A stretch of 46,296 bases of DNA from Candidatus Gastranaerophilales bacterium (GTDB lineage: Bacteria > Cyanobacteriota > Vampirovibrionia > Gastranaerophilales > Gastranaerophilaceae). Position numbers and translations under genes: made by a program. The notes beneath the pieces are model-generated. The model saw nothing but the letters and a program-made list of their open reading frames with translations, ran no database searches and was not told the origin of the DNA. Each line of letters begins with the position of its first letter. Within the stretch, counting starts at the first letter, position 1. Location of the stretch: contig CALUVM010000042.1 in NCBI GenBank assembly GCA_944324255.1, forward strand, positions 1-46,296. The letters are read 5' to 3'. Positions 2,442-44,459 of the stretch are shown piece by piece.

Positions 2442-5400
2442 CTAGTGTTTGCAAGACTATTAAGTCTCAGCCTACTGTTATTATTTAACTCACTAATTGT
2501 AGGAACATCTATACCTTGACTCTTCAATTCAGAAATCATCTCCTGATACTTTTCTAGTTCTTGATAGACTCGGCTATTTGCAACACGTTCTGCATTTGTA
2601 TTTTGTGCGATAGAATTTAAAATTTCAGCCCACATTTCACTGTTGGAAACATCGCCGTTAAATCTATCGTAAATGGCTTTTGCTTTATCAAATACATTAG
2701 TCGTTACTGTATCAATACCTAGTGTATTTGCTAACGTTTCTATTGTACTTCTATTCAGTTCATTACCTGTGAATGTATCAACACCTGTAACTTGTTCAAA
2801 CGGTGTTCTGATTAATGGAGAAGTAGAAGACACTACTCGACGTAATGGCTCTTCTGCAAACTCACCTAAATCAGATACAGGAAGATTTAACTTCAAGTAA
2901 ATACGGTTGCCTTCATCATCAGACCATGGTAATGGTAATTGAAAGTTTTCTTTCTGATACTGGTAGTATTCGTCCTCATCTAAATCACTATAGATACTAT
3001 TATAGCCTTTAATTAGCTTATTATATTTGTTTGCATTCTTCGTTAGATTAGAAGCTTGGAATAACAAATTCTGCTTCGTAAACGTATAAAATGGAATGAT
3101 TTTCTTAACAACGTTACGTTCAAAATCACTCATATTATTTGGGTCCATTAATGCAAATCTAACAGCTTCTATAGGACTATTAAATCCTAAATTGCTAACA
3201 AATTTAGGGTGTTCATTAGCATATTTAAGAAGTGCCATTCTGTTTAGTGAGTCAATTGCACCATTTAAGTCACCATTCATTTGAACTAATCTACTAATAA
3301 CACCTTTAGAATTTCCAGCACCTTGTAAAACTTCCTCTAAGTCTTGTAACGTTGTACCTGCATTATTAAAGCCACCCTGATAGAATTGCCTAATTAAATT
3401 GTAATCATCAAGTTCTGCTTTAGTTAGTGTTTCAAGTCCACTATTAGCCTTAGCAATGATATTGTCCATATTATTTAATATCTTAGAAGCATCTTGGTAA
3501 AGTCCAGGTATTTGTGAAGTAGGAACTCCACTTAAAGCTAAGTTTACTGCATTACCTGTAATGTTTCTAATTTGGAAACCAGGAGTTAAAACTTTGAATT
3601 TCTTAAAAGTGTTATTGAATGAGTTTACCATTTTTAGAATGGGACTCATCTGTCTACCATCATTGAAACCAACTTTAAATAAATTAGCTAAGTTTTTATC
3701 CATATAGACAACCTTACCATCTAAAGAATTTACAAAGTCTTGAAGTGCTGTTGAATTTTCTGGAAGAATACCTTTAATAGCATCAACTTGTTTAGCTATC
3801 TTACTTGCATCAACCCTTGTAAAGTTGTAAGGAATTTGACCGTCTACTAAATCATCAGCTGCCTTTATTAAGTCGGTGTCATACAATGTACCTGTTAAAA
3901 GTGCTTCATTATAAAGTTTAGCACCTCTTGAAGTAGCTGTAGCATTATTAATAAAGTCCTCAATTCCTGCCATAGCATCTAAATTAAATAACTCTTTACC
4001 TTGTTGACTTTCCAATACATCTGTAGCCTTCTGCAAGTTTTCTATTCTTTTTAGTTTAGCAGCATCAGCACTTTCATCAAGTGCTCCTATTTGAAGTTCA
4101 AAATCACGTTGCTTTTGTTTAAGTCTGCTAATTTTATCAGAAAAAGTTTCTCTAATAAGAGGTTCACTTTCTCTTAGCTTAGCATAAGCAGCACTTTGTT
4201 TAACATATCGTTCAGTAAGATTATCTGACTTATCCATAGCTTTAACAGTATCATCTATAGTTTTAAGTGCAGCATCATCAATTGTTCCTGATATTTTTGC
4301 AGAACTTACTCTAACATCATTTTCTAATTTAATTATACGTTGTTCTAGTTTGGAAGCTCTATTAAGTAATGAGTCTACTTGTCTTGGTTTCAAATTATCT
4401 GAGTTTTCAATTTGTTTTATAAGGTCATTAAATTGCTTTTTAGAGTCTGCTAATTTAGTCGTATCATTTAAAAACTTATTAGAAAGTCTCGGGTCTTGTA
4501 TTTTAGAAGCTTTGTCTATAATCTTATCAGAAAGTGCATCTCTTAATGTTTGTCTTGCAGTATCTGTCTTAGTTAAAGACTCTAGTTTCTTAGCTTGGTT
4601 TGCACTAAGTTTAGCTAACTTTGCATCTCTTTTAGATTCTGTTTCAGTTATTTGTCTAGAAACATCACTTATCTGTTCTTCTAAAATAGTACGTTTATTT
4701 GCTGACAAGTTCTTTTTTAAGTTATCCACAGTTCTTTTATTTCTTGAAATAGCTTCAGTAATTGCTTCTTGTGCTCTTACATTTTCAACTTCTCCTGGGT
4801 CCACTCTTGTTCTTGAAGCAAACGAATTTGGATTAATTACATTACCTCTTCCAGATGCTATGTTTCTAGCTTCCTCACCCAAATCGCCTTGTGCACGTCT
4901 AACATATCCAGGACGATTAATAATCTCTGAAAAATCTGCACCTGTTTCTTCATTGATAATTCTAGATATATCCTGATAAGCTTGTTTAGTGTCATCTACT
5001 AAAGACATAAATTCACTATTTTGTTTTAGGTCATTTATTCTTTTAAGTTGTTCATCTGTATAGTTAAGACTTCTATTTAAGTTCAAATTTCTAAAAGCTT
5101 CTTGAACGTTTGGATTGTTCTTAAAGTCATTAAGTAATTTGGACTTCTTTGTATTGATGACAAGTTCTGTACCACGGTCTCCCTCTCTAATTGTATATTT
5201 TATAGATGGATATTGGTCTAAAACATTCTTAACTTGATTAATAGACTCGTCTGTTGCACTAATTATATTTCTTCTATTCTTAGAACTTATATTTCTAAGC
5301 CATCTTTCACCATCAATTGCGGTGTCCATTTCACTTTCAATAACACGTGTGATGTCCTCAGAAACTTCTTTCATGACATCGTCTACATTTCTATTTGTAC

Positions 5401-6378: not shown

Positions 6379-7479
6379 CTACTGATAGTTCTTATAGTAG
6401 TCTATCAAATATCCTAAGTTGGTTGCTGCTTGATTATATAATACATTATCTAAATTGTACTGCTCTTGATATGCTGCAATCGTGTCCATAGCTGCATCAT
6501 AAATTTCATTCATCGTATTTTTGTCGTTTCTATTAGTACGTTTTAATTGATTAGCTGCATCATTTACAATACTATTTAAAGCATTAATACCAGCATTTTG
6601 AGTAGCTGCTGCATTAGCTCTTTGTGATGCTAAGCTTGCTGCTAAACTTGCAGCTTGTTGTCTAGCCTCTTCTTGACGAACTCGTTCATTGTATTCTAAT
6701 TGAGCAATTAAATTAGCTGTATTTGCATCAATGTTTTGAACGTTTAGATTATATTCATTTAAAATATCATTTAGTGACTTGTCTGTATCTTCTTGAGCTT
6801 CACGAAGTGCTGTTCTAAGTGCATCCATAGCTTGTTGATTAGCATTTGCATTTTCACTAACTTCTCTACCTTGAGCAATCAAATTTTGTAATTGTGATAA
6901 CTGTTGAAGACCACTTCCACTAATACCTCGAGAAGCTGCATCTACCATAGTTGCTCTGTCTGCTTGATATCTTGCATCTTCTAAGTCTGCTCTTGTACTA
7001 AGATAATCCTGCCTTTGTTGTTGCTGTTGAAGTGCATTCTGCTCTTGAAAACGTTTAATAGAAGTTAGTAAGTCTTGTCTTTTAGATTGATACGTTTGGT
7101 TGGCTGTATCTTTTTGTGCTTGTGCTGCTTGGTTATAAGCATTAATCATAGGTGTTAAATCAATAGGACGTGCAGCAGCTACAGCTTGATTATAAGCTGA
7201 ACTAGCTCCTCCTAATTGATTATTTACAAGTGAATTTAAGTCTACACCTGAACCGACAGTCACTAATTTAGACGTATCAAAGCCAGAACTTGGAGAAGGT
7301 TTGCTATAATTTGTCCAACCTCCAGTTGTTGTATTAGGTCGTTGATTTCTATCTGCTGTTGGTCTAGGAAGATTATTCGATGCTCCAGGTTGATTTCCAA
7401 TACTGGTCGATGTTGTAAATACAGGAGTTTTAGATTTATTACTACTTCCACCAAAAAGAATATTCCACAAACTTGCCAT
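6379..7479 (-). CDS. probable internal virion protein, Gln/Ala-rich coiled coil, 366 aa
   Basis: An Asn/Pro/Ser-rich disordered N-terminus (about 1-75) is followed by extended heptad-like helices rich in Ala, Gln and Arg (about 100-300), for example QEQNALQQQQQRQDYL and ERVRQEEARQQAASLAAS. Such proteins sit beside the giant ejection protein in short-tailed phages and resemble T7 gp14/gp15 in character, not in traceable sequence. AAGGAGG lies 7 bases before the ATG, and a promoter at 7517-7545 lies just upstream. Transcribed with the 1316-aa gene 11 bp downstream. Confidence 0.6.
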   Translation of the reverse strand: MASLWNILFGGSSNKSKTPVFTTSTSIGNQPGASNNLPRPTADRNQRPNTTTGGWTNYSKPSPSSGFDTSKLVTVGSGVDLNSLVNNQLGGASSAYNQAVAAARPIDLTPMINAYNQAAQAQKDTANQTYQSKRQDLLTSIKRFQEQNALQQQQQRQDYLSTRADLEDARYQADRATMVDAASRGISGSGLQQLSQLQNLIAQGREVSENANANQQAMDALRTALREAQEDTDKSLNDILNEYNLNVQNIDANTANLIAQLEYNERVRQEEARQQAASLAASLASQRANAAATQNAGINALNSIVNDAANQLKRTNRNDKNTMNEIYDAAMDTIAAYQEQYNLDNVLYNQAATNLGYLIDYYKNYQ

Positions 7480-7516: not shown

Positions 7517-7545
7517 AGTATATCATAAATGTCTATAAATGTAAA
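7517..7545 (-). promoter_or_regulatory. late promoter for the internal virion genes
   Basis: On the minus strand it reads TTTACA-N17-TATACT, with a TATGA extension before the -10 and the bases TTAGAT after it. It lies about 40 bp upstream of the 366-aa gene. The TATACTTTAG core recurs in two other minus-strand promoters (7987-8015 and 8125-8153). Confidence 0.75.
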
Positions 7546-7638
7546 CAAAAGCACCATGGTTGAACCACAGTGCTAGTTTAGAACCCAGAATGTTCTAATG
7601 GAATATGTTGGATTGTAGATGTCAAGTAATGCACCTAC
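7545..7638 (-). ncRNA. candidate small structured RNA B (about 94 nt)
   Basis: A perfect promoter (7645-7673) puts +1 at G7638. The segment then holds three hairpins: GTAG...CTAC at the 5' end, TAGAAC-N7-GTTCTA (perfect 6 bp), and a final stem AGCAC..TGG/ACCA..GTGCT followed by TTTTGTTT, which looks like an intrinsic terminator. It has no start codon with a ribosome site and no open frame of note. It is best read as an independent non-coding transcript; no known RNA family is recognised. Confidence 0.55.
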
Positions 7639-7644
7639 TATTAC

Positions 7645-7673
7645 AGTATATAATATTAAAATTTTTATGTCAA
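7645..7673 (-). promoter_or_regulatory. consensus promoter for small RNA B
   Basis: On the minus strand TTGACA-N17-TATACT, a full consensus -35 with ideal spacing. No protein gene follows within reach before the hairpin/T-run at about 7551-7575, so its product should be a short RNA. Confidence 0.8.
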
Positions 7674-7696
7674 CAAAATAGCACCTAGAAGGTGCT
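7671..7696 (-). terminator. hairpin with T-rich tail upstream of small RNA B
   Basis: The stem AGCACC-N5-GGTGCT (7680-7696) is followed on the minus strand by ATTTTGTT. It would end transcripts entering from the 7853-7881 promoter. Its tail overlaps the -35 of the next promoter. Confidence 0.6.
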
Positions 7697-7699
7697 CTG

Positions 7700-7846
7700 G
7701 AAAAAATAAATAAATAGTGAGAGACTTCATCCAAAAAACATAAATCTGTACTTGGCTTTGACATAAAAGTTAAAATAATTGTTTTTGAAGTAAAATTTAA
7801 CCTGAAAGGTAGTTGTGTGCTTACAAAAACTATAGAAATCTCTCAC
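7700..7846 (-). ncRNA. candidate structured RNA A with paired 5' and 3' ends
   Basis: The promoter at 7853-7881 places +1 at G7846. From exactly that base, GTGAGAGA (7846-7839) can pair with TCTCTCAC (7724-7717), extended across one mismatch by three more pairs. Inside lies a second perfect 7-bp pairing, GTTTTTG (7830-7824) with CAAAAAC (7787-7781), enclosing a small ACCT/AGGT hairpin. The closing stem is followed by a U-rich stretch. A short frame crossing this region (7573-7764) runs through the terminator and lacks a ribosome site. The end-to-end pairing resembles the architecture of phi29 pRNA or 6S RNA; I claim no homology. Confidence 0.5.
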
Positions 7847-7852
7847 ATATTT

Positions 7853-7881
7853 AATATACCACATATTGAACACTTTTTCAA
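7853..7881 (-). promoter_or_regulatory. promoter for structured RNA A
   Basis: On the minus strand TTGAAA-N17-TATATT with a TG extension (TGTGG before the -10). The seventh base after the -10 is the G at which the closing stem of RNA A begins, which supports the start assignment. Confidence 0.7.
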
Positions 7882-7894
7882 TACCTTTTTCAAT

Positions 7895-7927
7895 AAAAAA
7901 TGACTACGGAGCATTGAGTCATTTTTT
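7895..7927. terminator. strong bidirectional intrinsic terminator
   Basis: AAAAAATGACT (7895-7905) and AGTCATTTTTT (7917-7927) form an 11-bp perfect stem with an 11-nt loop and a T-run on both strands. On the minus strand it closes the short transcripts started at about 7980 and about 8118. Confidence 0.85.
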
Positions 7928-7980
7928 ATCACCATAAAACTGGAAGTGTAAATGAAACACCCATTATAGGAATAACCTAC
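7895..7980 (-). ncRNA. candidate small RNA C (about 86 nt)
   Basis: It begins about 7 bases after the -10 of the promoter at 7987-8015 and ends at the strong terminator 7927-7895. The first bases (GTAGGT) are the same as those of candidate RNA B. An internal GTGT-N7-ACAC hairpin precedes the terminator. No coding frame is visible. Alternatively it is only the 3' untranslated end of the micro-ORF transcript. Confidence 0.4.
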
Positions 7981-7986
7981 ATCTAA

Positions 7987-8015
7987 AGTATAGCATAAAA
8001 CAACTTAAAAATCAA
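7987..8015 (-). promoter_or_regulatory. promoter for small RNA C
   Basis: On the minus strand TTGATT-N17-TATACT followed by TTAGATGTAGG. The -35 overlaps the stop codon of the micro-ORF (8014-8012), so any product is separate from or nested in the micro-ORF transcript. Confidence 0.6.
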
Positions 8016-8089
8016 TATTGTGGCTCCATAGGTTGTGTTCTCTGTAGTTGTGGTTGCATATAATAAGGTTGATTATAATTTCCAAACAT
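8012..8089 (-). CDS. 25-residue micro-ORF, Gln/Pro/Tyr-rich
   Basis: An excellent ribosome site (AGAAGGAG) lies 8 bases before the ATG at 8089. The product starts MFGNYNQPYYMQPQLQR and ends after 25 residues at TGA. A promoter-like TATACTTTAG lies about 30 bp upstream and a strong terminator about 90 bp downstream, so it forms its own transcription unit. N-termini of this Q/P/Y-rich kind begin longer proteins in other Bacillota phages, so it may be a truncated remnant or a real microprotein. Function unknown. Confidence 0.5.
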   Translation of the reverse strand: MFGNYNQPYYMQPQLQRTQPMEPQY

Positions 8090-8124
8090 ACTTATTCTCC
8101 TTCTAATTGGTTATTTACACCTAA

Positions 8125-8153
8125 AGTATAACGAGGATAATTACTTCATTATT
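8125..8153 (-). promoter_or_regulatory. possible promoter upstream of the micro-ORF
   Basis: The minus-strand -10 TATACTTTAG is identical over 10 bases to those at 7517 and 7987, but the -35 (AATAAT at 17 bp) is poor. The expected start is near 8118, about 29 bases before the micro-ORF ATG. Confidence 0.45.
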
Positions 8154-8168
8154 GATTGAAAATTGACC

Positions 8169-8196
8169 AAAAAAAAAGAACGACTTTATGAGTCGT
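8169..8196 (-). terminator. terminator of the lysis operon
   Basis: The stem ACGACT (8196-8191) / AGTCGT (8185-8180) is followed on the minus strand by TC and a run of nine T. The stop codon of the sigma-like gene is in the loop. It separates the lysis operon from the small-RNA cluster. Confidence 0.85.
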
Positions 8197-8479
8197 CCTC
8201 TTCTAACAATTCCTTATAACATTCTGGAAAGTCAATCCTGCCTCTTTTGATAGCTTTCTTGAATTTATTAACACCATAGGTAATCTTTCTAGATATTGTT
8301 TCTGCATTTTGATAGCCAACTTTATAGGCGATTTCAACATTAGACAATCCATAAACCCATTTAAGTATCAAAATCTTTCCAACTATTTCTGGCATACCTA
8401 CAACATTTATATAGTACTCAAGAGTTTCTTTATCAAACTCAGACATCTCTTTTCTGATGACTTTATCTATTTGTTTCAT
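8186..8479 (-). CDS. sigma-70 region 4-like helix-turn-helix protein, 97 aa
   Basis: Residues about 38-80 (ILKWVYGLSNVEIAYKVGY and then ISRKITYGVNKFKKAI) fit a sigma-70 region 4 / ArpU-type helix-turn-helix: a helix, a turn after GLSN, a recognition helix and a basic tail. The N-terminus is acidic and helical with no region 2, so it cannot be a complete sigma factor. It could bind late promoters or host RNA polymerase. Its start overlaps the holin stop (TAATG), so it is the last gene of the lysis operon. Confidence 0.65.
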   Translation of the reverse strand: MKQIDKVIRKEMSEFDKETLEYYINVVGMPEIVGKILILKWVYGLSNVEIAYKVGYQNAETISRKITYGVNKFKKAIKRGRIDFPECYKELLEEDDS

Positions 8480-18416: not shown

Positions 18417-19232
18417 CTATTTCTTTCCGGCTAACATTTTAGCCAAATTATCAATATCTTTATTTAATTTATTAATATCGACTTTGTTATTAGAAGATTG
18501 ACTAATAGGCATTTCCTTTCTAATCTGCTCTTTTTTATTGATTGTTTCCTGTTTCTTATCAATATAAGAACCAAGTAAATGCGTCAAAGCAGCTTTTGGC
18601 ATATTAAATAGCATTGCATCTGTAATCCCATCTTTTGACAAATCTTTACTCAACTTATCAACTTCAGGTTTTGATAACTTATTATCACTAATAAATTCCT
18701 GCAGTGTGCTTGCTAGTTCTTTGCCTCTTTGCTTAACTTCTTGCTGTGTCATCTTTTCCATGATGTCATTTACGTTTTTTGATAAGTTTTGAATTTCTTC
18801 ATAAACTTTTGCTGATACTCCAGACTGTTGTGCCTGTTTGTCAGCTACTCGCTGTTTTGCTTTTGTTATAAATGCGTTAGCATCTGCAAATCCTAGGCTT
18901 TTTGCTAGACTCTCAACATCTGAAAGCATATCTTTGTATTTTTTGTTTTCAGTACGCATAGAAGCAAAAGCTGTGTTTGAACGGTCGCTATCAAGTGAAA
19001 AATCAACCTCTTCAGAACCATCATCTTCATCATCTGCATCATCAGTATCATTTGAAGCTTTCGCATCATTTGAACTTGTTTCAGCAGGTGTTGAATTTTG
19101 ATTATTGTCCTCTTTAGACTCATCGACCAAATCATCTAAATTTAGGTCATATTCACTTCCTAATACAGTCTCTGCATTAGTGTCACTGACTTGTTGTTCA
19201 GGGGCAGTTTTCCCATTTAATACTTCATCCAT
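18417..19232 (-). CDS. capsid scaffolding protein
   Basis: A 271-aa protein with a very acidic, disordered N-terminal third (an Asp/Glu cluster near 65-75), a long helical centre with RVADKQAQQSGVSAKVYEEI, and a Lys-rich C-terminus (DIDNLAKMLAGKK). This acidic-helical-basic arrangement directly upstream of the coat gene is the signature of phage scaffolds. It is lost from the head during maturation. Confidence 0.8.
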   Translation of the reverse strand: MDEVLNGKTAPEQQVSDTNAETVLGSEYDLNLDDLVDESKEDNNQNSTPAETSSNDAKASNDTDDADDEDDGSEEVDFSLDSDRSNTAFASMRTENKKYKDMLSDVESLAKSLGFADANAFITKAKQRVADKQAQQSGVSAKVYEEIQNLSKNVNDIMEKMTQQEVKQRGKELASTLQEFISDNKLSKPEVDKLSKDLSKDGITDAMLFNMPKAALTHLLGSYIDKKQETINKKEQIRKEMPISQSSNNKVDINKLNKDIDNLAKMLAGKK

Positions 19233-19315
19233 AAGAACACACCTTTCTCACACTTATTTATATTGTCCTAGTGGTCGGACGTAGTGCTATGGGAGCAAGT
19301 ATAACTCCAATTAAA

Positions 19316-19344
19316 AATATAACACAACCCAAAATAAAAGTCAA
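19316..19344 (-). promoter_or_regulatory. internal promoter for scaffold and capsid
   Basis: On the minus strand TTGACT-N17-TATATT, with the start expected near 19309, about 77 bases before the scaffold ATG. The -35 is part of the right arm of the terminator hairpin at 19340-19361, so a terminator and a promoter are interlocked. Confidence 0.65.
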
Positions 19345-19361
19345 CTTATGTAAAGTTGACT
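19331..19361 (-). terminator. terminator after portal gene
   Basis: The stem AGTCAAC/GTTGACT (19340-19346 with 19355-19361) is followed on the minus strand by TTTTATTTT. It lies downstream of the portal gene and upstream of scaffold. Confidence 0.65.
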
Positions 19362-19365
19362 ATTT

Positions 19366-19440
19366 GTTCACTGAGGGGTGAACTCAAATTGACATTGACC
19401 TCGTGCATACAGAAGAAAGAGTATTTTCTATTATGAGGTC
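19366..19440 (-). other. structured intercistronic segment with two further stem-loops
   Basis: On the minus strand, GACCTC (19440-19435 region) pairs with GAGGTC (19401-19396 region) around an inner hairpin, and a separate perfect stem GTTCAC-N6-GTGAAC lies at 19366-19383. The 215-bp gap between portal and scaffold has no gene, so these may be RNA processing or stability elements. Confidence 0.5.
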
Positions 19441-21500: not shown

Positions 21501-21695
21501 TTAACTCTTTTTCTTGTTCAAATCTATATTTTTATCTATATAATCTTTCTGATATTGAGGAACTCCTGCTAAAGAGTACCTTTTTTCATCATTTTTTGTG
21601 TTTTTTGATACAATTTTTTCAAATTTTTGAAAATTGTCGATAAAATAGACAAGTTTTTCATAATTTTTTAAAAGAAATCTTAACTTTTTCAACAT
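21501..21695 (-). CDS. small basic protein between TerL and portal, 64 aa
   Basis: The start overlaps the terminase stop by 7 bases, with GAGGCTATAG nearby, and the stop lies 13 bp before the portal start. The product is Lys/Phe/Tyr-rich (MLKKLRFLLKNYEKLVYF) and amphipathic. No family recognised. It is well placed for translational coupling. Confidence 0.5.
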   Translation of the reverse strand: MLKKLRFLLKNYEKLVYFIDNFQKFEKIVSKNTKNDEKRYSLAGVPQYQKDYIDKNIDLNKKKS

Positions 21696-23949
21696 AATCT
21701 ATAGCCTCCTGAGTGTCTTTTTCCTCTTCTTTCTTTAGCTGTTTCTTCTACAGACTCCTGATACATATCTTTTAGCAAGGTTTTCATTGTACTTTCTCGC
21801 TGTTCTTTTGGTTTCTGGTTCATTGTTTTAAAGAAATCGGCATAACTTGCATAAGAAGTATGCTTCATATTTAAGTAGTCATAAGGAATGTCTTGGCAAA
21901 TATAACGTAAGCAATCCATACAGTTATGAACTATATGCCCACCATTTACAGCAAAATTATGATACTTCTCAACTTCCATATTGTACACATCTTCATTCTT
22001 TAGTCTTGTTATTTTTAGAACTTTTGCTACATTCTTTTGAACAATATAGTCAATACTGATTATCTGTGATTTTTCTGTTAGGTTTCCAGCTTCTACCCAA
22101 CCTTCTGTTGTTAGAATTAGATGGTCAGGTGTACACTTTATAATTCCTTTATCAGTTTCAATCTGTATAATTTCTGCATTTTCTCTGGTTTTTCTTACAT
22201 CTTTAAAACTGCTTACAACTTTCTTTTTCAACTGTTCATCATAACAATATACTTGCCCTTCTTTTCCAACTAAGTCTTTTATTGGAATTAAACCAGTTGT
22301 AGTATGCACTAGAGTATCTCCTGTAAGACAGTGATTATTTTTATCTAATGGTTTCTCTCCTAAGTTTTTATTCTTGTTTCGTTCCTCTTCTGTTGGATAG
22401 CGATATTCACAACCTTCCCATATTGTGTTAGTCAGACTTCTAAAAAACCTTACTTTTCCATTATACATCATATTCTTTACTTTTTGAATACCGTCCTCTA
22501 GTGCATTGTTTGCTAACTTAAACACAATACCATGCTCAATCTGCATTTGTTGCTTATATGTTCTCGGTACAATCTGACTTCGTTTATTAGCAGATGGGTC
22601 GATTAAAGGTGTATGTAACATTCCTGGAGCAATATCTTTTGTCATTTCATAGAAAGCACTTGCTACTTGTGATGCAACTTTATTTTTCTGATAATATTCT
22701 CTAAAAAAGTGAACAATTCCTGTTTCTGGGTCAATTGCTCCCATTAATATAGCAGCAGGGTCGTTAATTCCAGGGTCATGGGCTAAATAAACTTCCCAAT
22801 TCTTCGGTATATCAAAGTCATCTTCTACCATATTTAAAATATTCGGATACACTGCACCAACTGCATACTCAATAATACAGTCAATATACAGTCTTGCTTC
22901 TTCTGGTGTTAGAGACCTCTCTACTGTCTCAACAAATCCAGGTGGTAAGTATGGATTATCTCTACTGCTTGACAAAAATGCTTCAATTTCTGGGTTTGGT
23001 TTTTTGACACGGTCTTTATACATGGCAACTGTATTCTGTATAGATGCACTACCATAAATTTTACTGGCTGTGAAAAGCAAATCTCTCAAATAACCATGAG
23101 ACGGGTTAGATACTAACAGACCTACATAATGAGAAACTCCATTAATGATGCCTGCTTTATTTCTTAGACGTCTAATACATTCTTTATAAATTTTCGGGTC
23201 TACACCAGATGCTTCTTCTATATAAAATGCAGTAATATCCATGGAACGTATTTTCTCTTCGTCATCACTGGCAAGTCCTAAAATAGTGTGTCCATTTTTC
23301 AGAATTATCTCAATATCTTGTTTAGTATCGGTCCATTTCTCCACGAATTTTCGTGGCAAGTACTCGTCAAATATTGGCATGATTGCCTTACTTAACTGCT
23401 TTAATGTCTGTGCAAACATTACTGTCTTTCCGTTCGGTACTGACAGGGCATGGTCTATAATCTCGTTTACTCCTGCACGGGACTTAGCAGAACCCATCAA
23501 TTATGTTATCGTAAAGGCTCTTTATCCTTTACTTCTGTAGTTTCATATTATGAGTTATAGCTACAGTTCAGGCTATATCTTCACCTTTCGGTGTCGGGCA
23601 CTCGTGGACAGTTTATTGTTTGTCTACTCACTGTCTAGTCGTTGAACCTTCCATGTACTTTTATGACATTCCATGGCTTGGCTGCTGATTACCCACTTCT
23701 GGGCTTTCCAGCAATTCACCCGATTACGAGGCTATGGGTTATTTAACCTCCCAACATAATTTCTATCTTGGCACGACTTTTATGAAACTCTAACTGGTGA
23801 GGTAGTGGCACGTAGTGTATGTATGCTGCTCCACACGCATCACAATACCCGTACTGGTGCTTCCCATCTTTCTCGATTGTGATATGTCCACTACCACAGA
23901 CGGGACACTTAAATATAAGTGTATTTTCTGTCTCAGCTTCTTGTATCAC
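21689..23949 (-). CDS. terL: terminase large subunit, interrupted by a group I intron and a mini-intein
   Basis: Joined coding parts: 23949-23746 (68 codons) and 23497-21689, giving a 670-aa precursor and a 534-aa mature ATPase-nuclease after intein removal. Residues 1-40 are an unusual N-terminal zinc ribbon (CPVC and CDAC pairs). Walker A GGMGSAKS (67-74) is restored only when the intron is removed. Walker B is AFYIEEAS (about 158-165). The nuclease domain has AHDPGINDP (first Asp about 309), LIDPSANKRS, and NNH^CMDCLRY, where the caret marks the intein. It packages DNA through the portal. TerL with both an intron and an intein is very unusual. The N-terminal start overlaps the upstream zinc-finger gene. 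Confidence 0.9.
21923..22330 (-). other. 136-residue mini-intein in TerL, no endonuclease
   Basis: The intein begins with Cys (block A CLTGDTLVHTTTG), has block B GIIKCTPDHLILTTEGW with the TxxH, then block F VYNMEVEKYHNFAV and block G GGHIVHN followed by Cys+1. This gives a canonical Cys1...His-Asn/Cys+1 splicing set. The frame is continuous with the exteins, so it splices at the protein level. Length 136 leaves no room for a homing endonuclease. Removal rejoins NNH with CMDCLRY, the last metal-binding motif of the nuclease. Confidence 0.92.
23498..23745 (-). ncRNA. group I intron in terL Walker A (248 nt, no ORF)
   Basis: The 5' exon end GAGGT pairs with the internal guide GCCTC about 13 bases into the intron, with the conserved U.G at the splice point. 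The last intron base is G23498. Core elements on the minus strand: GCTGGAAAGCCC (P), CAGCAGCCAAGCC (Q), GGTTCAACGACTAGAC (R) and AAGATATAGCCT (S). Splicing joins LGG to MGSAKS. There is a stop codon directly after the exon, so the unspliced gene gives only the 68-aa N-terminal fragment. Confidence 0.93.
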
Positions 23950-40189: not shown

Positions 40190-41092
40190 ATGAATGCAAA
40201 AGAAAATGCAAGACTTAATGAGTTAAGACTTGTTATCAATCTTGTTGATGTTGATAGAAAATTAGATGGTTTAGCTTTTAAGAATTATGTTTCATTATTA
40301 TGTTGTTTAGCTCTTGCAATTGGAAGAGAGCCTAACAATCACTTATACGAAATCATCAAAACGGCTTTGTCAACAAATTATTTAGGAGCAAGTGATAAAG
40401 AAATCATAGCAACTTGTAAAACCTTTTTTAAACCTACAGTTGCTGCTAAAAAGTTAGGTTACACTTATCCATACTACACCACAAAATATGCTGATTTACT
40501 TTCTAGAGACTACGTAAAAGAAGAGTGGCTTAATGATTTGAAACCACTTTTCCCTGATGATGTAGACCTCATAAAGTTTGTGAATAGCTTCATAGAAGGT
40601 TTCAACTTTCCTGTAGGAATACGAAACAGTTCTATTGAGAATGACCTTAGAACGTACGAACTTGAGTTTTGGATTATCTATACTAAATTAAATAGTATCT
40701 TTCAAAACGACGTGTTCTTACATAATTTCATAAAGGTTGTTTGTAATACATTTGGTATCGACTATGACACTATAAACTATTTGGAAAGTAATATCTATCG
40801 CATCTCAAGAAGTTATCCTGTATTGAAGTACAACAAACAATATTTTCTACAAGAATTGATTAATATGTGCTATGCAAAGGGAATTAAAAGAGGAACAATA
40901 GGAAAAGACATTTTAGGACAAGACACGCATTACTTGTACAATAATAAGAGAGCAGTTACTGAGAATATCTTAGGAACAGAGGTATTCGATTGTATCTATG
41001 TTCCAACACTTACATGGAATTCCTTAGATAAAATATCCGTAAATCGCTTCATTTCAATTTTCTATGATTTTGTTGAAAATGGAAACAGCTAA
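40190..41092 (+). CDS. hypothetical replication-associated protein, 300 aa
   Basis: Helical, with an N-terminal hydrophobic helix (FKNYVSLLCCLALAIGRE, about 27-45) and many Tyr/Phe residues. It is located between the primase-helicase and the DNA polymerase and overlaps the polymerase start by 29 or 14 bases. AGAGGAGG precedes the ATG. No motif recognised. Confidence 0.7.
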   Translation: MNAKENARLNELRLVINLVDVDRKLDGLAFKNYVSLLCCLALAIGREPNNHLYEIIKTALSTNYLGASDKEIIATCKTFFKPTVAAKKLGYTYPYYTTKYADLLSRDYVKEEWLNDLKPLFPDDVDLIKFVNSFIEGFNFPVGIRNSSIENDLRTYELEFWIIYTKLNSIFQNDVFLHNFIKVVCNTFGIDYDTINYLESNIYRISRSYPVLKYNKQYFLQELINMCYAKGIKRGTIGKDILGQDTHYLYNNKRAVTENILGTEVFDCIYVPTLTWNSLDKISVNRFISIFYDFVENGNS

Positions 41093-44000
41093 AGAGTTCT
41101 TATATAAAAAATTTGGCTATAAAACATTAGAACTAAAGACAATGAAAGACATAGAAGAAATGGAATGGGATTTTGTTACAAGTAATGTTCCCTACTTTGC
41201 ATACGATACAGAAACTACAGGTTTGAACTTTATGACAGATGTTCCTTTCCTAGTTATATTTGGGTTTGCTAAGAACATATATTACTGGGAAGCTGATTTT
41301 AAAGAAGCAACGCAAGCCATGTATAAGATTGTAGAAAGTACAGATAAAATGCTTTTTGCTCACAATGCTAAATACGATTATCACATGATGTACAACAAAG
41401 GCACTCCTATTCCTGATGACATAGAATTATCAGACAGTATTACACTTATGAGATTGATTAGTCCTGCTGATGATGAACACGCAAGTATGAGACTAGAAAA
41501 AATGGGAGAAAAGTATGTTGACCCTGATGCTAAATTTGCTAGTGATATTATCAAAGATAAACTAGAAGAAATAAAGAGAGAACGTAAGAAAGAAGTCTGT
41601 GATAACTACAAGCTTATAACAGGCAATAAAAAATATAATGAAGCATGGAATACTTTTCATAACAGGGTTAGATTTATCACAAAGTATCATGAATGTTTTG
41701 ATGATTATAAAGAGCCTACATATTATGATGTCTTTAAGAGAGATAGAAAGTTAGTTATAGACTATGCTATCGATGACGTTGTGATTATCTTAGAATTTCT
41801 TAAAAAGGCGGGTACAATCTATGCTAAGAAGTACAGAACAAAAAATGGTATAGATACAAGAACATGGAAACGTGAGAATAGATTGCTTCGTGGTATTGCT
41901 ACTATGGAGAGAAATGGTTTCAAAGTGGACGTCGACTATCTAATTAGTTCTCATTACAAGATAGAGAAATTTCAGGAACTACTTTATGAGAAGTTACATA
42001 AAATAACAGGAGAAGATTGGAATGTAGGACAACATCAAAAGATAAAAGACTTCTTCCTAAACAAGTATAATATCTTATTAGAAAACAGTGATAAGAAAGC
42101 TATGCAAGATTTAACACATAATGAGAACGAAACTGTTTCTGAAATAGCCAGATTGATATTAAAACTTAGAACGGTATCTAAATGGCTATCCACATATATT
42201 GATGGCATTCTTAATAAAATCATAAAAGTAAATGGAGAGTGGAAGCTGTACACTTCAATTAACAATAATGGAGCAGTTAGCGGACGTGTCAGTTCAGACT
42301 TACAACAAATGCCTAAATATGGTATCAATCAGACGGATGATGAGGACAATCTTTTATTAGACAAGTCATTAACGGATGACGATGGAAACGAGCTATTCCA
42401 CCCTAGACGTTTCATTATTCCTAGTATAGGATATAAGTTATATTATTTGGATTATAGTCAGATGGAACTGAGAATACAAGCTTTTTACACAATATTAGTA
42501 GGACATTTAGATTATCACTTATGTAAATCTTATATGCCTTATGACTGTGTTAATTCAGTTACAGGAGAGACATTTAACTATAAAAATCCTGAACATATAA
42601 AGCATTGGGGAGACCTAAGAGAAGGACATCCTGACCCTCACACTGTAAAAGATGGTATGGAAGGTCTATTTAAAGAAGGTTGGTCTGTTTGGATAGATAA
42701 TGAAACAGGAAAGCCATGGGTTCCTACAGACTTGCATACAAAAACGACATTGACTGCTTTTCCTGAATTTACAGACAAGACAGACACTAAAGAATTTAAA
42801 AAGAAATGGAGATACTTAGGGAAGCAAACGAATTTCGCTGAAGCATTTACGGCGAAGTAAAATCGTGTGAACGTTGGTAGCGGTGTACTACAAGAGTAGT
42901 GCTAACGAGGGAAGCCTAAGTCAATATGATAAGGTAATCTCGTGCCAAGCCTCTTATGAGGAAGGTGTAACGACTATCCGTGATGAATGTAACGGAGTAG
43001 GCTATCTATTACCACGATAGCCCAAGTGCACGACACTATTTAATAGTGAAGAAATAGTCTAGTCTTTATGGAAACATAGAGTATAAACGAAAAATTATGG
43101 TTGCGGAGCACGGAAATTAGCAGACCAATTAAATGTACCATTTGACATAGCTAAGAAGTTATCAGACGGTTATAATCAGTCATATCCAGGTGTTGTAAAG
43201 TACCAACAGGCTGTTCAAAATCAACTAGCACTTGTAGGTTATGTTGAAAACCTGTATGGTCGACGTTATTATCTAGAAAACTCATCAAATTACTATAAGG
43301 CTAATAATTATTTAATACAAGGTACAGGAGCAGATATGTTAAAAGAAATAGAAATAAAAATCTGTGATTATCTGAAAGATAAAAAGTCACGATTTATATT
43401 ACCTATCCACGATAAACCACATTGTCGTGTATAAATCTCTTGATATGCTGGAAAGCCCTAAAGACAAGTAAACTAAAGCAAAATATGAAAATATAAGTGC
43501 AAATGTTCTAAAAATTACTTGTATGTCGTGTAAAGTTATAATACAATATACGTAAATGGGAAATCAGCAGGGAGGAACTTGTATGGTAGAACAAATAATA
43601 TTAAGTGGCAAACTAGGTGATGGTTGTTTAGTTAAGTATTGTAAAAATGCAATTATTAGATTTAATTCTATTCATCTTAACTACTTAATATTTAAGAAGA
43701 TACAATTAGAAATGGGAGGAATAAGAACAACAGACATATCTTTTGGAATTTCAGGATATAATAGGCAACGTAAAATACCTAAATTTTCAAGTCATGTTGA
43801 TGGACGTATTACGAAAGCTTATTATATGTCTAAAAAGGAATGTATTGAAAATTTGGATATAATCGGTATTATTATGTTATTTTTAGACGACGGCTCTTAC
43901 CATAAAAGAGCTGGTACAGGTAATTTGTATGTTAATACATTTACACTTGAAGAACTTAATGCACTTATAGATAAAATTTACGAGTACTATCCTCAAAAAA

Positions 44001-44459
44001 AATGTTCAATATATCATGACAATAAAAAAGATGGAAGAAGTTATCCTTATCTTTATATTCCTAAAATAATTATGGAAAATTTCAAAAAAGATATAGCAAT
44101 GTTTGTTAAAACTTATAACATTCCTGAAATGTTCTACAAAGCAGGTTTACCCTCAACGACTATCCGTAAGGAGTAGAGGCAAGTGCCTCGAAGTAAGAGA
44201 ATATCGTAAGATATAAGATATAGTCTATTCTTTATGGAAACATAAAGCAGTTCTAAAAGAACGAGTATAGCCTAACGAACTATACTGAATATAAATGGAA
44301 ATTTGTGTTGAGGTTCCACCTGAGGAAGAAGATACAGTACCTATTACCATAAAACGTATGATGGAAGATGTAAGTGATGTAATACCTTATGTACCTGTTG
44401 TTAGTGATGTAGAATGTACATCAACAACATGGGCTGATAAAAAAGACGTTTATTTGTAA
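41064..44459 (+). CDS. polA: family A DNA polymerase, split by two group I introns
   Basis: Three exons: 41064-42839, 43090-43413 and 44298-44459, all phase 0, giving 753 residues. The 3'-5' exonuclease domain has YDTETTG (Asp48, Glu50), HNAKYDYHMM (about 100-109) and YAIDDV (234-239). The polymerase domain has motif A LDYSQMELR (about 462-470), motif B KQTNFA^KNYG and motif C LPIHD^EICVEVP, where carets mark intron sites. Both motifs are intact only after splicing. The 41064 ATG overlaps the previous gene; an in-frame ATG at 41079 is the alternative. Confidence 0.93.
42840..43089 (+). ncRNA. group I intron 1 of the DNA polymerase (250 nt, no ORF)
   Basis: Exon end TTCGCT pairs with guide GGCGAA (42851-42856) with a terminal U.G. 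The last base is G43089. R-like GTGTAACGACTATCCGT and S-like GAAGAAATAGTCTAGTC are present. Splicing creates NFAKNYG of motif B. The exon frame reads into the intron and stops at 42858-42860, so unspliced RNA yields a truncated, inactive polymerase. Confidence 0.92.
43414..44297 (+). ncRNA. group I intron 2 of the DNA polymerase, with homing endonuclease gene
   Basis: Exon end CACGAT pairs with guide GTCGTG (43424-43429), again with a terminal U.G. The last base is G44297. GCTGGAAAGCCC (P) appears near the 5' end, and CTCAACGACTATCCGT (R) and AAGATATAGTCT (S) near the 3' end. Splicing restores HDE of motif C. The 3' half is strikingly like that of intron 1 (ATAGTCTA, then TCTTTATGGAAACATA). 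Confidence 0.93.
43583..44176 (+). CDS. LAGLIDADG homing endonuclease in intron 2
   Basis: The ATG at 43583 follows GGGAGG by 8 bases; the in-frame ATG at 43556 has no site. The 197-aa product carries two degenerate LAGLIDADG helices, LSGKLGDGCL near the N-terminus and IIMLFLDDGSYH near the middle, so it is a single-chain two-motif enzyme. It would cut intron-less polymerase alleles at motif C and spread the intron. Its end (PSTTIRKE) overlaps the R element of the ribozyme core. Confidence 0.9.
   Translation: MVEQIILSGKLGDGCLVKYCKNAIIRFNSIHLNYLIFKKIQLEMGGIRTTDISFGISGYNRQRKIPKFSSHVDGRITKAYYMSKKECIENLDIIGIIMLFLDDGSYHKRAGTGNLYVNTFTLEELNALIDKIYEYYPQKKCSIYHDNKKDGRSYPYLYIPKIIMENFKKDIAMFVKTYNIPEMFYKAGLPSTTIRKE

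Follow-up and report, generated by a model that had tools for sequence, protein, structure and literature searches.

In phage lambda, the 6S RNA transcribed from pR' to tR' is a terminated late leader under Q, and the late genes depend on read-through. The pRNA of phi29 is comparable to one of the RNAs predicted below (R3) in its size and in its long 5'-3' stem with inner hairpins. To our knowledge, little has been learned about small RNAs in lytic phages that infect Gram-positive bacteria. Phage intergenic small RNAs with their own promoter and terminator are a known kind of transcript (reviewed in PMC12197685), and the units analyzed here resemble them in being short (50-220 nt in the reviewed cases), non-coding and located between a promoter and an intrinsic terminator. 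The reviewed RNAs differ in that they come mostly from temperate or proteobacterial phages and many are antisense or Hfq-dependent; none of those listed is placed between lysis and ejection genes, or between portal and capsid genes, in a podophage of the present type. Non-coding transcription of unknown function is also on record for a phage of a Gram-positive host, Staphylococcus Kayvirus 515A1 (PMC7698491), but its transcripts are far larger (570 and 525 nt), adjoin tRNA genes and were seen by RNA-seq, whereas the present units are predicted from sequence. The open-access papers searched yielded no description of small-RNA units at such boundaries; for the Paenibacillus larvae podovirus API480, the authors predicted promoters and terminators and did not mention a small RNA (PMC6937236).

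The window spans contig C42 in full (46,296 bases), one of 43 contigs in a 1.89 Mb assembly. It is a podophage, with genes for the terminase large subunit (with an intein), the portal protein, an M23 endolysin, the holin Hol44, a family A DNA polymerase, a Toprim primase-like protein and RecE/Erf proteins. A minus-strand block from ~25.5 kb down to 2.4 kb comprises the packaging, head, tail, lysis and ejection genes; elsewhere, genes are on the plus strand. The ejection operon consists of a 366-aa gene (7479-6379, minus strand) followed by a 1316-aa gene (6367-2417), neither of which has a match in family searches; the term 'ejection' is inferred from position. On the lysis side, the region of interest is flanked by the gene for a 97-aa regulator-like protein (8186-8479, minus strand; phrog_36 transcriptional regulator). 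At the protein level, the relatives are IMG/VR contigs, one of them 46 kb long (L017/L025); the Paenibacillus larvae podoviruses API480 and SV21 are more distant. A search of 50,697 phage records detected no DNA-level relative, the region giving only promoter- or terminator-like chance matches, and no relative came from protein queries (366-aa ejection protein, portal and capsid protein) against the genome contigs and against whole genomes of the host's order and of its relatives.

Several other features of this contig can be recorded here. The intein (PF14890) of the terminase large subunit (21689-23500, minus strand) is absent from relatives such as L002. At the gathering score, a scan of the whole window against Rfam returns two group I introns only (RF00028; 23535-23794, minus strand, and 42838-43081, plus strand). 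The second intron lies just where the DNA polymerase ORF (41064-42860) ends, and a 91% repeat of its 3' part at 44215-44247 suggests another intron end near that position.

On the minus strand between 7480 and 8200, four good sigma-A promoters, one weak promoter and four terminators are arranged, reading from 8479, in the order regulator gene, T1, P1, a 25-codon ORF, P2-R2-T2, P3-R3-T3, P5-R5-T4 and P4, where R2, R3 and R5 are predicted RNAs. The weak promoter P1 (8118-8159) has the -10 hexamer TATACT (8130-8125) within the motif TATACTTTAGGTG, lacks a good -35 and falls under the strong-promoter threshold. The four strong promoters all have 17-bp spacing: P2 (7987-8015, TTGATT-17-TATACT, -10 at 7992-7987, motif TATACTTTAGATG), P3 (7853-7881, TTGAAA-17-TATATT, -10 at 7858-7853), P5 (7645-7673, TTGACA-17-TATACT, -10 at 7650-7645) and P4 (7510-7545, TTTACA-17-TATACT, -10 at 7522-7517). 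P2, P3 and P4 are extended -10 promoters, and P5 has a perfect -35. The predicted starts are at ~8118, 7980, 7846, 7638 and 7510, with a G at every one. Terminator T1 (8169-8199, AGGACGACT-CATAA-AGTCGTTCT-TTTTTT), which scored 19.5, overlaps the stop codon of the regulator gene, and T2, T3 and T4 are located at 7929-7890, 7696-7672 and 7574-7541. The elements are tightly packed, the -35 of P2 overlapping the stop codon of the 25-codon ORF and that of P5 the U-tract of T3. Downstream of P4 come the Shine-Dalgarno (SD) sequence AAGGAGG and the ATG at 7479, and extended -10 promoters, like P4, stand at the ejection-operon position in L025, L028, L038 and L040.

A previous sequence-only reading of this DNA had proposed five minus-strand promoters, one of full consensus, alternating with three or four intrinsic terminators. 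All four terminators are borne out, and its predicted starts at 7846, 7638, 7980 and ~8118 agree with those given above; four of its promoters are good and one, P1, is weak, and one of the good ones, the fifth promoter P4, turns out to be the ejection operon's own. None reaches full consensus, the best, P5, standing at 11/12. The label 'late' comes from position only; the promoters look like host vegetative promoters. The motif ATACTTTAG was considered as a phage-specific promoter and rejected: it has three exact copies in the region, a fourth candidate (9758) lies inside a gene, and with one mismatch allowed its whole-contig count is not above chance.

The segment that starts at 8118 contains the 25-codon ORF MFGNYNQPYYMQPQLQRTQPMEPQY (8012-8089, minus strand) behind a strong SD (GAAGGAGAATAAGT-ATG). 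This ORF, overlooked previously, occupies the place of the Tyr/Pro-rich gene of the relatives (120-159 codons), to which it shows weak similarity in the first residues only. By contrast, no SD-plus-start was found inside R2, R3 or R5 on the RNA strand, so the earlier statement that the segments lack ribosome sites applies to these three and not to the first one. R2, R3 and R5 each have two further marks of a phage small-RNA gene, a promoter of their own (P2, P3 and P5) and a terminator (T2, T3 and T4) that ends a 50-250-nt unit. R2 (7889-7980, minus strand, ~91 nt) would begin with a hairpin at +1 and end at T2, and R5 (7541-7638, ~98 nt) with a hairpin of 7-9 bp at +1 and end at T4. R3 (7670-7846, ~175 nt) is predicted to be structured: a 12-bp stem, GUGAGAGAUUUC/GAAGUCUCUCAC, begins exactly at the predicted +1 and encloses two inner hairpins, and the terminator, T3, is independent of it. 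The R3 fold (7846-7676) has a free energy of -42 kcal/mol and a z-score of -5.5 against shuffles, compared with -4.3 for R5 and -3.5 for R2, the terminator hairpins contributing to all these z-scores. Unlike the phi29 pRNA, R3 has no Rfam match, and the phage carries an ordinary terminase large subunit rather than a phi29-type packaging ATPase; at relaxed thresholds, the region gives weak sub-threshold Rfam matches only.

A fourth promoter-RNA-terminator unit, R4 (19330-19440, minus strand), likewise missed by the sequence-only reading, is flanked by the portal gene and the promoter of the capsid operon and has a GACCUC/GAGGUC stem at +1. The capsid promoter (19321) and P4 (7522) follow the terminators of R4 and R5, respectively.

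The same boundaries can be compared across the relatives. Before the capsid operon, the layout of promoter, short RNA, terminator and promoter is found in the window and in L010, L020, L022 and L013; in API480 (unit at ~4405-4490, predicted start ~4436), promoter, RNA and terminator are present and no promoter was detected downstream of them. L008, L012, L017 and L021 have only a terminator followed by a promoter, and neither layout is clear in L007 and L019. Before the ejection operon, the window, L025 and L028 have a unit and L038 and L040 a bare terminator-promoter boundary; neither was found in L027, L041 and L044. The extra upstream promoter is optional, since some relatives have the bare boundary only. 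The layout is shared with relatives that are too diverged for DNA similarity. In these relatives, a given slot is either empty or occupied by another RNA with this architecture. The R4-type RNA is conserved between L010 and L020 only; these two agree over most of the RNA, with the middle 'ACAATTCCATTCTGATGCTTTTA' in common, differ in their 5' hairpins and show one compensatory change, G-C to A-U, in the terminator stem. The units of API480 and SV21 are nearly identical, and the API480 RNA, folded separately, has a z-score of -4.2. No sequence homologous to R2, R3 or R5 was found in any relative's locus examined, and a covariance model of R3, built from R3 itself, matched only its own reverse strand in 31 sources and nothing across 65 genomes from the host genus.

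The capsid operon has as its leader a conserved RNA element, GAG..CTCCCATA..GUCC-GACCgaaa-GGAC..SD, present at ten loci: the window (19225-19315, minus strand), L007 (13750), L008 (8634), L010 (5713), L012 (6066), L017 (9166), L019 (2326), L020 (1320), L021 (1644) and L022 (3427). In its second hairpin, two pairs have changed on both sides (UA/AU and CG/UA), the covariation score is 0.272 versus 0.136 in shuffles (0/500), and there is no Rfam match in the loci scanned. Near-identical, structured-looking intergenic stretches follow the portal gene in L007 (13606-13720) and L019 (2182-2290), where no promoter was detected and the only Rfam match was insignificant. The pre-capsid unit of L022 (3316-3399) has a possible sRNA seed in ACCUCCUC, which is complementary to Shine-Dalgarno sequences and, as predicted by folding, is largely free of pairing.

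Gene content between the regulator and the ejection operon also varies. In L025, L028 and L038, there are about five to seven small genes, the Tyr/Pro-rich gene first; in L040, L041, L042 and L044, this block is wholly absent. Ahead of the Tyr/Pro-rich gene, L028 (3640-3735) and L038 (375-455) have short leader ORFs, MKEKEFENIKGDVRSILLLLLLI and MQDYISGVHNLKLVHIMLLLF, each behind a good SD. Their Leu codons (CTTCTTC and TTGCTCC) pair with the SD region and a U-tract follows, an arrangement that looks like a translation-sensitive terminator. Another conserved element, absent from the window, lies between two small late genes in L025 (4006-4114), L037 (513-612) and L038 (1807-1900); it consists of TGTC..GACA and TCTC..GAGA hairpins followed by a terminator hairpin. 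The GCAAGT-like loop of this hairpin complements an upstream ACTTGC, which suggests a pseudoknotted terminator.

The predicted RNAs have in common that pairing starts at about the first nucleotide. In ten units, the four of the window and six of relatives (the API480 unit was left out), the mean pairing of nucleotides 1-4 is 0.95, compared with 0.45 in shuffles (0/200), for units that were picked after inspection, several of them after the hairpin had been noticed, and with starts assigned by rule. For R2, R3, R5 and R4, the predicted value is 0.96-1.00, the starts being themselves predicted. In 15 mRNA leaders of the same phages, under the same start rule, the average is ~0.33; most ejection leaders are near zero, and the window's own is at 0.92. 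The RppH of Bacillus subtilis (BsRppH) requires two or more unpaired nucleotides at the 5' end, with a preference for G at position 2 (review PMC3997798). By prediction, R2, R3, R5 and R4 have fewer than two unpaired, so RNAs of this kind should be long-lived in a B. subtilis-like host because RppH needs unpaired 5' nucleotides. That the host uses RppH and RNase J is assumed from a Firmicutes-like affinity, for which the Gram-positive-type relatives of the phage, the use of Shine-Dalgarno sequences and the low G+C speak.

Such an array could in principle be a chance product of A+T-rich DNA. The region is indeed A+T-rich, and a generic scan over 3 kb, which missed T1 and T2, shows a smaller excess, the promoter count being only modestly above expectation (21 versus 13.9; terminators, 3 versus 1.1). 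However, under fixed definitions the 706-base region contains 4 strong promoters, 3 terminators and 3 units running from promoter to terminator, against means of 0.19, 0.08 and 0.004 in 1000 dinucleotide shuffles, of which 0, 1 and 0, respectively, reach the observed numbers; the definitions of strong promoter and terminator were fixed after the region had been seen, which makes the exact odds optimistic. In the whole-contig control, there are no units on the plus strand and six on the minus strand, namely R2, R3, R5, R4 and two antisense ones inside early genes. With none of the shuffles attaining three units, a chance origin is extremely unlikely. Only slightly more credible is a relic of gene loss, with left-over intergenic DNA in place of the approximately seven small genes of L025, L028 and L038. 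Those genes are missing from the window and the 25-codon ORF resembles the start of one of them, but three intact promoter-terminator pairs with strong folds are unexpected in left-over DNA, and L025 and L028 have a unit at the ejection boundary despite the presence of the genes.

Two further explanations give the promoters a role and the RNAs none. The units could be attenuated leaders, whose promoters serve the capsid or ejection operon once a factor of the phage, perhaps the 97-aa regulator, drives read-through of the terminator in the manner of lambda Q at pR'-tR', the short RNAs being by-products. The position directly upstream of structural operons and the adjoining regulator-like gene fit this scheme. 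In lambda 6S, a strong promoter and a terminator also yield a short RNA just upstream of lysis or structural genes. The window departs from lambda in that every downstream operon has its own good promoter past the terminator and that alternative antiterminator pairing with the 5' arm of the terminator is not above shuffles (p 0.25-0.77); moreover, the upstream promoter is dispensable in relatives. Attenuation is thus unlikely, although a protein-dependent antiterminator site may exist. Distinctly unlikely is simple redundancy, whereby extra vegetative promoters with imperfect terminators only supplement transcription of the next operon and the RNAs are functionless. A+T-rich phages often have strong promoters close to their operon boundaries, and the compact overlap of promoter and terminator (the P5 -35 in the T3 tail) would suit redundancy; against it, the terminated units are paired at +1 far more often than the mRNA leaders of the same phages, the 12-bp stem of R3 over ~130 nt would need maintaining, and three consecutive units make little sense.

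The reading that we consider probable is that R2, R3 and R5, and R4 with them, are facultative genes for stable small non-coding RNAs. The bank of small RNAs suggested originally is best supported as three non-coding units at this locus, not five. The architecture, the pairing of promoters with terminators far above chance, the +1-paired 5' ends and the recurrence of similar units at the same boundaries in relatives were all computed; the synthesis of the RNAs, their stability and their action in trans are what we infer. In this podophage family, structural operons basically meet at a terminator whose tail runs into the promoter of the next operon. At some boundaries, an extra strong promoter of vegetative type lies upstream of the terminator, and RNA polymerase would make an RNA of 60-175 nt and then stop. 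Such an RNA, paired from about its first nucleotide by a hairpin or a closing stem and ending in the terminator hairpin, would have both ends guarded in a Firmicutes-type host, the 5' end against the pyrophosphohydrolase and RNase J and the 3' end against exonucleases.

The most likely role of these RNAs would be regulation of host or phage RNAs in trans, or binding of a host protein. Among the phage's own gene starts, no antisense target beats shuffled RNAs (p 0.18-0.98), and it is because of this lack of a phage target, together with the lack of antiterminator pairing, that stable small RNAs with host or other targets, judged probable, are favored over attenuated leaders, judged unlikely. 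A search for a copy of R3 in the host genome gave short or weak fragments only, and one for 6S in the host gave no match. As to mimicry of a CRISPR repeat (an anti-CRISPR RNA, Racr), there is no Cas1 in the host assembly and hence no repeat for comparison.

What is new here is the fourth unit before the capsid operon and the plain boundary of the relatives with its optional upstream promoter. More tentatively, and with doubt prevailing, the podophage family might keep 'RNA slots' at the portal/capsid and lysis/ejection boundaries into which unrelated small RNAs of common design, with a +1 stem and their own terminator, are swapped, and R3 might represent a new class of structured RNA in phages, with some component of the host or virion as its binding partner. 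If the RNAs are made, their clear start sites and the removal of the genes offer direct tests; the common 5'-end design predicts stability, and such RNAs would be findable in uncultured phages from sequence alone. The phage family would then have fixed places for small-RNA exchange between its structural operons.
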